DNA of 64,000 nt. Source: Diatrype stigma (lineage: Eukaryota > Ascomycota > Sordariomycetes > Xylariales > Diatrypaceae). Position 1 is the first letter of the stretch, and each line of letters starts with the position of its first letter. Position numbers and translations under genes: made by a program. The stretch covers positions 124,001 to 188,000 of the forward strand of contig JAKJXP020000059.1 in NCBI GenBank assembly GCA_022225965.2. Direction: 5' to 3'. The notes under the pieces are model-generated. The model ran no database searches and was not told the DNA's origin. It saw nothing but the letters and a program-made list of their open reading frames with translations. Below, piece after piece: positions 12,241 to 20,421 of the stretch.

Positions 12241-15138
12241 TTACATAAACGCTTGGCTCCCTATTAGCCTCGGAGAACCCCCAACCCACCCCTTAATAGA
12301 AGATGAATCAAGGGTGAGGCGCAAGGCCAGAGGTACGACTTACCAGCACAATACGCCAAGTACCAAGCCAACGAAGCCCCGCCGTCCAGCCAGGCGGGGT
12401 CGAAGTTCTTGTCGGTGAAGAACTCCCAAGCCGCCTTGGGGTCAATTGTCGCCAGGTTCGAGTACAGGATTCCCTTCCAGCCTCCCTCTATCTTGTCGGC
12501 GCGGCCCTTGTCGAAGTACGTCTCCCACTCCTGCTTTACGAATTCCTTCGGCCGGGTAAGTTTCGTGCTCGGAAGAAGTGGGAGCATATGAATGCCCTGG
12601 ATGTATTCGATATTCGCCCCGAAGTAGGTCGTATGGTCGCACTTATTCTCGAAAAGAATACCGGCCACCTTGTTTCCAATAAAGTTCGAAGGTTGCACCT
12701 GGTTATCGGACGTATAGAGGTAGTAATGATTCAACGAGCGTGCCATGACAGACAACATCAAGTTACCCCTATATGGCGTGAGCTATATTCACCTCTGGAA
12801 GCATCAAAACAACAATGCTTGTGTTGGCTCGCGAGACTCACCTGGCTTCCATATCTGCGTCTTTAGTAGTCTTTCCCCACATCTTGATGGCATATGCATG
12901 CATCGTGTCTTCCGAACTCGATTCTTGATCCTAGAGCGCAAAGTGTCAGAATTCGGGATTCTCTTCAAAGAGGAATAGGCGCAGCCTACCTTTCCGTCAA
13001 GGGTATCGTATAGTCCATGGGCCCAACTATGGCCATGATACCAATCGAAATTCCGGAACTCGGGGAAGTACTTGTCGTCCTTTGAAGGATTGGCAATATC
13101 TCGAACCAAAGTATTCACATAATCGACATTTTCCTCAGTCAACCATGGAGGATCCAAGTACCCGATGATAGCAGCAGCATAGATAAAGTAACCGTAGTGG
13201 AAGTGATGGTCGTTGTAGTATGTGTTACCGAAGTCTGCGCCATCATTCCCGGTCAGGTAAGTGGCAGAAGAGACCAGTCCGCCCCAAGCCGCTGTTCATG
13301 TCAGCCTATATGTCCCTTCTCGAGGAAATGTTGGTCTCTTGCCTACATTCGTAATATAGGGGAAACTGCTGCTTGTTGTCCAGAAACCGAGTGAACGCTG
13401 CTTTCAGTTTCTTCAATCCAGTCTCCGCCAGCTTTGAATCCTTCAGCAAGTCCTGGACGGTGTAGCTCAGCTGTGCGAACTTTGCCAGTGCCTACCCGAA
13501 ACGTTAGTTCCAGTTGGGTTCAACCAACGCTGGAGGCAGGATCAGCGAGGGTACCTTTCCACCAAAATACATAGAATTTTGGTTTGCTTGCTGGTCGGCA
13601 TCCTGCGCTATCTCCTTCAACGCTACCGGGCTGATTTTGCGAACTGATTCGTCTGACAAGACTTTCTTCGGGCCACCGACAGTGTCCCAAGGGGAAAAAT
13701 CCATAGCGATGGGCAGGTCAGGCTCGACCATCGTCCATGAGTCTGCTATGACAGCTGTCGCCATGCCCTTGGTCGTTGTCTGTAGCTTCAGGTCTTTCAG
13801 GGCATCTTTGGTTGCCTTGTCGAAGGAGTTAACCTGATGAGGCAAAGCATACATCATGAGCTTCGTGTCCTTGTCTCCACCCTTCTCGAACTCGAAGGTG
13901 TATGAACCCTTTGCTTCCGATACCGTGCCTGAGAGAGTGACGCTGACTGGGTACGCCCCTGATGCTGCGTCTATCGTCGATTCAAAATCGCCTGGATCCT
14001 TGGTGACCTGAATAGAGCCCGTGAAAGGCTTATCCGATTTTGCCAAGCCATTGTTGATAACTTTCAGTTCGAGATTGTCACCACTCTCTGTGTGGCCATA
14101 CACGTGCCATATTTTTCCATCTTCTAGGTAGAACGTATACTTCGTGATCCCTGGTTTCGGGTCCTTGGTGGATTTCGTTACGGTTTTGAAAAAGACACCA
14201 GTGTTGATGACCGGGGTCGCACCATGATACACCCCCGTCACGAAGCCCATTCCCTGCACCAGAGGAAACGTGATCAATGGTTTTGCTTCGGGGTCTGGGA
14301 CCAGATTGACGTTGATGGATTGGGCTGCCAAGTTGTCCGTCGTCAATTGCGTCTTGTCTCCCAACTCGACAGCCGAAAGGCACAAAGACTGAATCCCAAC
14401 AGGATTCAAAAAGTATCTCGCAGCACCTGTTTCCGGTCTTACCTGACCATAGACCCTTTGGCTTGCTTCTGTGTGGGAAATCGATAACCCCCAGCTGGAC
14501 GAGGCTCCCTGACCTCTCGCCCAGGCTACGGCATATGGATGGACATACGCCGGGGAAGTTTGCTTACCTAAATAGAAGTTGGCGTAGAATTTGTTCGTGG
14601 CAAAGGGAGGATCACCGTTAATGCCGACTCGAGGAACCGGGTGGTCTTTCTTCACAGTAAATTTTGGCGCTGGGGCAGTTGTCGCAATGGCAGCACCGAA
14701 AATATTCTCTGAGGCTTTAGACATACCAACAGTCTGAGACGGGATCGATACACCCTCCAATGGGAGTGAACTGGATTTGGGAGTGGAAATCAAGGTAGTC
14801 AAGATTGGTGTCAATATCGGTGGTGTTGATGGTCTGCCGCCAGCTTCTAGGGTCGAAAGCAGAGTTCCAGTAGTATCAAGCTTCGTGCCAGTTAACAGCG
14901 GCGGAATCTGAACAGTTCTAGACGATGCTGAAGTGGTGATCACTGGTGCAGGTACAGGTTGAATGTCTACACGATATGGACTCTTAGATGTTGGGATGGG
15001 CGTGTATCTTTGGCCTCGTCCTTGTTCCGGGTGTGGATATGAACAATCCGGTTCAGTCTGTCTGTTACTCAGAGTATGAAGTGGCAATGACTGGGTAGTA
15101 ATGACCTGAAGAAACGTTAGCAGAAGATACAGCAGCAT
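12241..15138 (-). CDS. Secreted endo-1,3-beta-glucanase, GH81
   Basis: Hydrolyses beta-1,3-glucan in the fungal wall; yeast Eng1 of this family helps cell separation. Six exons (15138-13555, 13491-13347, 13291-12990, 12930-12842, 12768-12344, 12260-12241) give 854 residues. The first ATG of the frame starts a signal peptide ([19 protein letters not shown]), followed by a Ser/Thr/Pro-rich segment to about residue 195, as in ENG1-type enzymes. The GH81 domain starts near [20 protein letters not shown]. The catalytic region is present: [12 protein letters not shown] with Asp 604, and [19 protein letters not shown] with Glu 680 and Glu 684, matching the family's conserved acidic residues. [18 protein letters not shown] fixes intron 1. 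The last exon is only 20 nt (ends SQAFM), so that 3' junction is less certain than the rest. Confidence 0.93.
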
Positions 15139-19713: not shown

Positions 19714-20241
19714 GCATGAGCCTGTATTGCATCTAGGCTGTCTCCATAATGGAATAAACCTCGACAAATAATACTATATGTACTTTTCAGTAGAGCTATA
19801 GAAGTAATGCCACGTTTTCGAGACCTCTTTATATCTAACTTATCTAACTTGCAGTTAATTATGTCTGAATGCCTCTCGTAAGTCGGCATGGCGATCCTGC
19901 TTCTAGATACGTATGTACCGGTCGTGCCTCATATAGTCCATAGTGTCTTTAAACCTAAACATGTTTCATCCTCTCTTTAGCTTGACAGCTAATAATACTC
20001 TCTTCTGCATCTGCCAAGTACGAAATTACCTACTCCAGCTATCATCCACATTGCGTCCTGACCACGGAATATCTACCTAATATGCAGCCACACAGCAGTT
20101 CCTTATTCACGTAAGACTCTGAGAGGTCTACTCAGGAACTCACGTTGAAGCCGGTCTAGTTAATGGTCCGTGATCCACACCACCGGCTCGGCTAGGTACT
20201 TATAGCACTATAAGAAACCGGCCTTCCAACCAACAGGCAAA
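19714..20241. other. Intergenic between deaminase and tRNA-Lys
   Basis: AT-rich 3' flank of the deaminase gene. Nothing recognised. Confidence 0.6.
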
Positions 20242-20367
20242 GCCCGGTTAGCTCAAGTAGGAACCCTCATCTCTCGCTTCCATCAAGCAAATGACTAACC
20301 AAGCAACAGTCGGTAGAGCGCAAGACTCTTAATCTTGAGGTTGCGGGTTCGACCCCCGCATCGGGCT
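20242..20367 (+). tRNA. tRNA-Lys(CTT) with 53-bp insertion in the D loop
   Basis: A complete cloverleaf is formed if 53 bp inside the D loop are removed: acceptor stem GCCCGGT/ATCGGGC (one G-T pair), D stem GCTC/GAGC, anticodon stem CAAGA/TCTTG with loop CTCTTAA (anticodon CTT), variable AGGTT, T stem GCGGG/CCCGC with loop TTCGACC, discriminator T. The mature length would be 73 nt before CCA. There is no intron at the canonical 37/38 site. The B box GGTTCGACCCC is intact. A run of eight T at 20414-20421 is a likely Pol III terminator. With all stems perfect the gene does not look like a decayed copy, apart from the insertion, which must be removed or tolerated for function. Confidence 0.88.
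20257..20309 (+). other. Spliceosomal-type intron candidate inside the tRNA D loop
   Basis: 53 bp beginning GTAGGA and ending CAACAG, with TGACTAACC whose branch A would lie about 12 nt before the 3' AG. This matches the organisation of protein-gene introns in this window, several of which also start GTAGG (STN1 neighbour DnaJ, GH81, exchanger). Removal at GT-AG leaves GCTCAATCGG; because of local repetition, excision one or two bases earlier would leave GCTCAGTCGG. Both are good D-arm sequences. No tRNA-type bulge-helix-bulge context is evident here. Confidence 0.7.
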
Positions 20368-20413
20368 CAATTCCCGATGCACCTGTATCATTCAGGTACT
20401 TCGAATCATTTAA

Positions 20414-20421
20414 TTTTTTTT
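20414..20421 (+). terminator. Pol III T-run terminator for tRNA-Lys
   Basis: Eight consecutive T, 47 nt after the tRNA 3' end. It is the first run of four or more T downstream. Confidence 0.6.

Follow-up and report, generated by a model that had tools for sequence, protein, structure and literature searches.

A tRNA-Lys(CTT) gene with an insert in its D loop

The window, by which we mean the whole stretch of 64,000 nucleotides analysed here (on contig C59 of the genome of Diatrype stigma, a wood-inhabiting fungus of the Diatrypaceae in the order Xylariales, class Sordariomycetes), carries a tRNA-Lys(CTT) gene on the plus strand at positions 20242-20367 that is interrupted within the D loop. 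The locus reads GCCCGGTTAGCTCAA, then 53 bases, then TCGGTAGAGC...ATCGGGCT. Exon 1 (20242..20256) corresponds to positions 1-15 of the tRNA, the insert of 53 bp (20257..20309) lies between positions 15 and 16, and exon 2 (20310..20367) provides positions 16-73, with the anticodon CTT at 20328..20330. When bases 20257-20309 are left out, all 21 of the 21 stem pairs of the cloverleaf are standard, which bears out the sequence-only reading of a tRNA-Lys(CTT) gene with intact stems around 53 bp of extra D-loop sequence. The remaining RNA of 73 nt has the cloverleaf as its minimum-free-energy fold (−28.0 kcal/mol, anticodon CUU), and its sequence is shared with four genes of this genome that have no insert. 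Removal of the insert at this locus leaves an intact cloverleaf and a lysine anticodon.

Standard tRNA searches saw the gene in part or not at all. The Rfam tRNA model gave only a partial match in the window (20302-20359, 30.8 bits), compared with 70.8 bits for the uninterrupted tRNA-Lys(CTT) copies. ARAGORN found 0 tRNAs in the window, while it reported Lys(ctt) for each of the four insert-free copies. Its failure to report the interrupted genes carries little weight because, as run, it also missed several tRNAs with ordinary introns in the anticodon loop.

The surroundings of the gene contain, on the same strand, candidates for the signals of a Pol III transcription unit. These are a TATA-like element, TATAAG, at 20209..20214 (33 nt 5′ of the tRNA), a putative composite A box, TAGCTCAAGTAGG, at 20249..20261, a B box, GGTTCGACC, at 20346..20354, and a run of eight T residues at 20414..20421 that is likely to be the terminator. 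The A box, the B box and the T run were recognized as consensus matches only. A trailer hairpin (20375..20403), which an alignment of six genes showed to be common to all tRNA-Lys(CTT) genes of this genome, lies between exon 2 and the T run.

The insert has the anatomy of an mRNA-type intron

The insert starts with a candidate 5′ splice site GTAGGA (20257..20262), contains the putative branch site ACTAAC (20294..20299, inside AGCAAATGACTAACC, with the branch A at 20298) and ends with a candidate 3′ splice site CAG (20307..20309). The start, the branch motif and the end are as originally described from the sequence, but the branch A had been placed about 12 nt from the end and by our count lies 11 nt from the last base. 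A second interrupted gene, on contig C53, has an insert that starts with GTAGGAA and ends with TAG, and its branch A lies at 13 nt. Both inserts thus have a GT donor, a YAG acceptor and an RCTRAY motif at a distance that conforms to the rules given for fungal introns, namely an RCTRAY branch site at 6-36 nt from the acceptor (PMC5832005). The same source gives GTRWGT as the donor consensus (PMC5832005), from which GTAGGA departs at two positions.

We determined how often such an arrangement arises among the 127,896 segments of 53 nt in the window, counting both strands. Ten of these have GT...YAG together with RCTRAY at 6-36 nt from the end, so that the chance likeness to an mRNA intron is about 8e-5 per segment. 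Under a stricter test, in which GTANG and ACTAAC were added, the insert was the only 53-mer to pass.

A GH81 gene adjoins the tRNA gene in the window (12769-13554, minus strand). Its four introns measure 55-73 nt and have the donors GTACCC, GTAGGC, GTAGGC and GTGAGT. In this small sample of four introns from one gene, GTAGG is an ordinary donor of this fungus (GTAGGC in two of the four), and the earlier statement that the insert has the anatomy of the mRNA introns in this window is upheld by these neighbouring GTAGGC donors. With two GTAGGC and one GTACCC among four introns, donor sequences in this fungus may be relaxed. The introns were mapped with the annotated protein; this mapping printed seven introns, the last three of which were dropped as forced because the end of the protein did not align to the DNA. 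We chose this approach over a de novo intron catalogue built from chained open reading frames, which was too noisy (a branch site in 18 of 74 distinct candidates).

A group I or group II intron does not fit the insert. At gathering scores the only Rfam match in the window was to the tRNA model, the models for group I and group II introns remaining unmatched, and 53 nt is too short for an intron of either group.

Six tRNA-Lys(CTT) genes and their flanking elements

The genome of this one species (48.98 Mb in 224 contigs) was searched for further copies. Exactly six places match a 22-letter stretch of exon 2 when as many as 3 mismatches are allowed, and each of them matches with 0 mismatches. 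The genome-wide count of CTT copies to which the sequence-only reading had pointed is therefore four uninterrupted genes (on C12, C40, C122 and C170) and two interrupted ones, the window copy and the copy on C53 (positions 1501-1651 of region L010). The C53 copy carries a D-loop insert of 56 nt at the same site as the window insert, and a further 22 bases in the anticodon loop, at 37/38; it gave no Rfam match at the gathering score, and ARAGORN also missed it. A query of 221 bp matched 7 places at E≤10, all of them tRNA-Lys, in a DNA search that skips common words. The sequence AGCAAATGACTAACC itself, with at most 1 mismatch, occurs 5 times in the genome (4 times for the reversed-pattern control), two of these matches being the interrupted tRNA-Lys genes. 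An introner-like mobile intron would have many similar copies in other genes, and such copies may lie among the words that the first search skips.

A TATANN or TATGTA word lies 33-49 nt upstream of every one of the six genes, in a tally made with no chance control. The consensus of the Pol III A box is TRGYNNAR-N(1-3)-GG. The insert splits this box, and in both interrupted copies the first five bases of the insert restore the match: TAGCTCAAGTAGG, made up of 8 nt of exon 1 and 5 nt of the intron, matches from the same start as TAGCTCAATCGG of the intact genes. Since GG would appear at a permitted spacing by chance in about 1 of 8 cases (our own rough estimate), this restoration is a suggestion and not a proof. 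By completing the A box, GTAGG perhaps keeps the gene transcribed, and such a role would explain why GTAGG is conserved.

A trailer of about 40 nt is common to the six genes (20368-20421 in the window, regions L001-L004, and L010) and can form the hairpin, after which comes a T run. In the alignment, 95.4% of the cells of the hairpin are paired, and one pair is changed on both sides in the window copy, from U-A to C-G. A second double change can be obtained by moving one gap by hand and was left uncounted. Over the six sequences the covariation was not above that of shuffled alignments (159 of 500), and we rejected the hairpin as a proof of function. Trailers of at least 20 nt with apparent self-complementarity also occur in at least two other tRNAs (L038 and L041), so tRNA-Lys(CTT) is not alone in having a hairpin trailer.

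The tRNA parts are unchanged while the inserts have diverged

The two D-loop inserts differ at 20 of 56 alignment columns and agree at the other 36. The agreement is concentrated in the putative splice signals: the 6 donor positions, 9 positions of the branch region and the 2 of the AG are identical in 17 of 17 cases, compared with 19 of 39 among the remaining columns (Fisher p = 1.4e-4, for a signal set picked after the alignment had been seen). The identical stretch around the branch site comprises all 15 positions of AGCAAATGACTAACC, and together with a second conserved block, CTCGCTT, it reaches past the minimal splice signals. By contrast with the inserts, the tRNA positions are the same in all six genes (73/73), both in exon 1 (6/6) and, the 22-nt insert of the C53 copy aside, in exon 2 (6/6). 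If the exons had drifted like the inserts, the probability of finding them unchanged would be 1.6e-23 at the identity of the non-signal columns or 9.8e-15 at that of the whole insert, figures obtained by simple multiplication that leaves gene conversion out of account.

These data bear on the possibility that both interrupted genes are pseudogenes, an insert having been gained once and then duplicated in copies from which no tRNA is made. The four intact genes could supply the tRNA, and a review presumes that short insertions in the D or T arm, found mostly in a single member of a large set of synonymous eukaryotic tRNA genes, are a sign of pseudogenes (PMC4090602). The insert-free CTT copies (four of six) are half of what would have identified the window gene as a dead copy according to the sequence-only reading; the conservation speaks against a dead copy. 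Pseudogene decay would be expected to reach the tRNA body, where we found 0 differences in 73 positions in either copy while more than a third of the insert columns had changed, and it would not be expected to spare splice signals preferentially. The borders of the insert are also exact, and the TATA-like word, the A-box match, the B box, the trailer and the T run are all kept. When 26 kb of the window was compared by blastn with a 16-kb region surrounding the C53 gene, a single similar stretch was found, consisting of the tRNA, the insert and the trailer, and there was therefore no recent larger duplication and no assembly echo. Unchanged tRNA parts and kept signals in a copy as diverged as that on C53 argue against dead copies and against an assembly error, and we regard two dead copies as improbable. 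The conservation argument comes from two mutually related copies, and gene conversion could help to keep their tRNA parts identical. Because four uninterrupted copies exist, the two interrupted genes are in principle dispensable, and selection on them may be mild.

Survey of other tRNAs and tRNA-like sequences

The tRNA model RF00005 gave 44 matches in the genome, with 63 of 1714 candidates scored. We read 29 of these by eye: 22 are nuclear-like tRNAs with ordinary D loops (including the 4 intact tRNA-Lys genes), 6 belong to an AT-rich tRNA-like repeat, and 1 at a contig end is ambiguous. Three further matches (on C23, C195 and C62) belong to the same repeat. The remaining 12 matches, which the D-loop survey left out, all lie on C79 and C159, and these two contigs look mitochondrial. 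As for the size of the non-coding complement, the Diatrype stigma genome paper gives 163 non-coding genes (PMC12217926).

Four sequence patterns were also used to look for D-loop introns. The pattern TRGCTCARGTANG had 30 matches (26 for its reversed control), 25 of which were discarded by a search for a B-box-like word within 260 nt alone; two of the other five are the tRNA-Lys copies, and L052, L064 and L070 were rejected, having no Rfam tRNA. Of 20 matches to TRGCTCARGTGNG (control 21), two have a B-box-like word and neither is a tRNA with a D-loop intron, L102 having also been tested with Rfam and L103 judged by eye only. The 8 matches to YAGTNGGTAGAGC (control 28) comprise the 2 tRNA-Lys copies and 6 sequences that by eye are not tRNAs. 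Finally, AGNTGGTTAGAGC had 4 matches (control 5), three of them tRNAs with ordinary D loops and inserts in the anticodon loop, and the fourth (L096) by eye not a tRNA. In this partial survey of the one genome we found no other tRNA with an mRNA-type D-loop intron; a restriction of such introns to tRNA-Lys(CTT) is not proven.

The AT-rich repeat family comprises L089-L094 and L033-L035 (on C17, C21, C12, C27, C11, C75, C23, C195 and C62). Its members hold a tRNA-like unit with shared flanks and are perhaps a mutated tRNA-headed SINE. Separately, a tract of L064 (about 1605-1680) has the outline of a tRNA, GGTCGTC...GACGATC, along with a B-box-like word, and Rfam did not report it at the gathering score.

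Introns in U6 and U3 and the probable route of removal

Two small structured RNAs of the same genome are interrupted by mRNA-type introns. In the U6 gene (L022, C103:111417-111512 and the sequence downstream, minus strand; the single reported match, with 47 of 2374 candidates scored), an intron of 55 bases follows ...GCATGGCCCCT and runs GTAAGT...TATTAACC...AAATAG before GCACTAAGGATGACACGC, with borders set by eye. It has the branch-like word TTAAC, and the Rfam match runs into it and misses the 3′ exon. The U3 snoRNA gene (L095, C7:681451-681746 and the sequence upstream, minus strand; again the single reported match, with 24 of 514 candidates scored) has a 93-base mRNA-type intron near its 5′ end, GTGAGT...GCTGACC...AACAG, whose borders were likewise set by eye. 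U6 is a Pol III transcript (PMC10484740), so in this fungus the spliceosome very probably already acts on one Pol III precursor.

The insert in the tRNA gene lies at 15/16 and not at 37/38, the canonical position of tRNA introns. The tRNA splicing endonuclease, or some other nuclease, could nevertheless cut it out and tRNA ligase join the exons, its likeness to an mRNA intron then being a coincidence. Ectopic introns in the D arm exist in some eukaryotes (PMC3978253, PMC4090602), and action of the endonuclease on the 22-nt insert of the C53 copy would be expected. Such cutting of the D-loop inserts is very unlikely, since over 32 placements in each copy we found no bulge-helix-bulge, that is, no 4-bp helix with 3-nt bulges, the best central helix having 3 of 4 pairs in both; furthermore, the positions conserved between the inserts are the spliceosomal signals, and a coincidental likeness is as rare as the window count indicates. 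That the insert is retained and functional in some other RNA, such as a precursor spliced only under certain conditions or a tRNA-like molecule whose D loop is greatly lengthened, is the least probable explanation, for although the two conserved blocks exceed minimal splice signals and folding allows a short hairpin in each insert, about half of the columns outside the signals differ, the unchanged tRNA body points to a tRNA as the product, no Rfam family besides tRNA was matched at the gathering score in the window, L009 or L010, and the exact restoration of a tRNA on removal would be left unexplained.

Discussion

We consider it likely, on the strength of these sequence comparisons, that the window contains a working nuclear tRNA-Lys(CTT) gene whose D loop is interrupted at 15/16 by a spliceosomal intron of the U2 type. 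The original reading of the insert as a spliceosomal-type D-loop intron gains support from the C53 copy, the U6 and U3 introns, the GTAGG donors and the absence of a bulge-helix-bulge. From the same material we infer that the gene is transcribed, that the intron is removed, that the spliceosome is the agent and that GTAGG has a double role. In this scheme, transcription by Pol III would rely on the TATA-like element, on an A box that owes its 3′ half, GTAGG, to the intron, and on a B box shifted 53 bp downstream. The spliceosome would then excise the 53 nt in the ordinary two steps, using the branch site ACTAAC and the acceptor CAG, whereupon the D arm could close and the 73-nt tRNA could fold and undergo the usual trimming and modification. 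In the C53 paralogue, the insert at 37/38 would have to be cut out by the tRNA splicing endonuclease as well. With less assurance, we lean towards the fuller proposal that the tRNA is matured by the spliceosome, that one sequence serves both as 5′ splice site and as 3′ half of the A box, with the two under joint selection, and that the C53 precursor depends on both the spliceosome and the Sen endonuclease.

The closest parallels are the introns of fungal U6 snRNA and U3 snoRNA, which are also mRNA-type introns in short structured RNAs and occur in this very genome. Here, unlike in those cases, the host is a tRNA, which has a splicing enzyme of its own, and the insert sits in an internal promoter, the A box. 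The U6 gene of S. pombe likewise has an intron, and Canzler et al. (2016) are said to have studied U6 introns. mRNA-type introns are also known in nuclear rRNA genes of ascomycetes, one title on the subject being cited in PMC11782384; these too interrupt a gene that is not an mRNA gene, but they belong to a Pol I transcript and not to a tRNA. Ordinary introns at 37/38, which are cut by the Sen endonuclease, resemble the present case in that a nuclear tRNA gene is interrupted, and the C53 copy even has an insert at that site; they differ from the D-loop insert at 15/16 with its mRNA-type ends and branch site, for which we found no endonuclease-type structure. Among small structured RNAs, U3 and U6 have been singled out as the only ones in which introns are known to be frequent (PMC5832005). 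Ectopic introns at D-loop or other non-canonical sites of eukaryotic tRNA genes are described for Cyanidioschyzon merolae, where they depend on a bulge-helix-bulge, and for the nucleomorph of Guillardia theta, where the inserts measure 3-24 nt and their route of removal is given as unknown (PMC3978253, PMC4090602). The inserts described here, in contrast, measure 53-56 nt, carry spliceosomal signals and show no bulge-helix-bulge. In a partial literature search we found no published report of spliceosomal introns in nuclear tRNA genes, and we do not claim a first report.

For annotation, the two genes would be a warning: the Rfam tRNA model matches one of them incompletely and misses the other at its gathering score, and inserts in the D arm tend to attract the label of pseudogene (PMC4090602). 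The wider meaning depends on whether the proposed splicing is true. If so, transcripts of tRNA genes made by Pol III can reach the spliceosome, and the GTAGG of these genes would be a natural case of letters common to a promoter and a splice site. Textbooks keep the splicing of tRNAs and that of mRNAs in eukaryotes apart, as two systems that have substrates of their own; if the spliceosome processes a tRNA precursor, the two would be joined.
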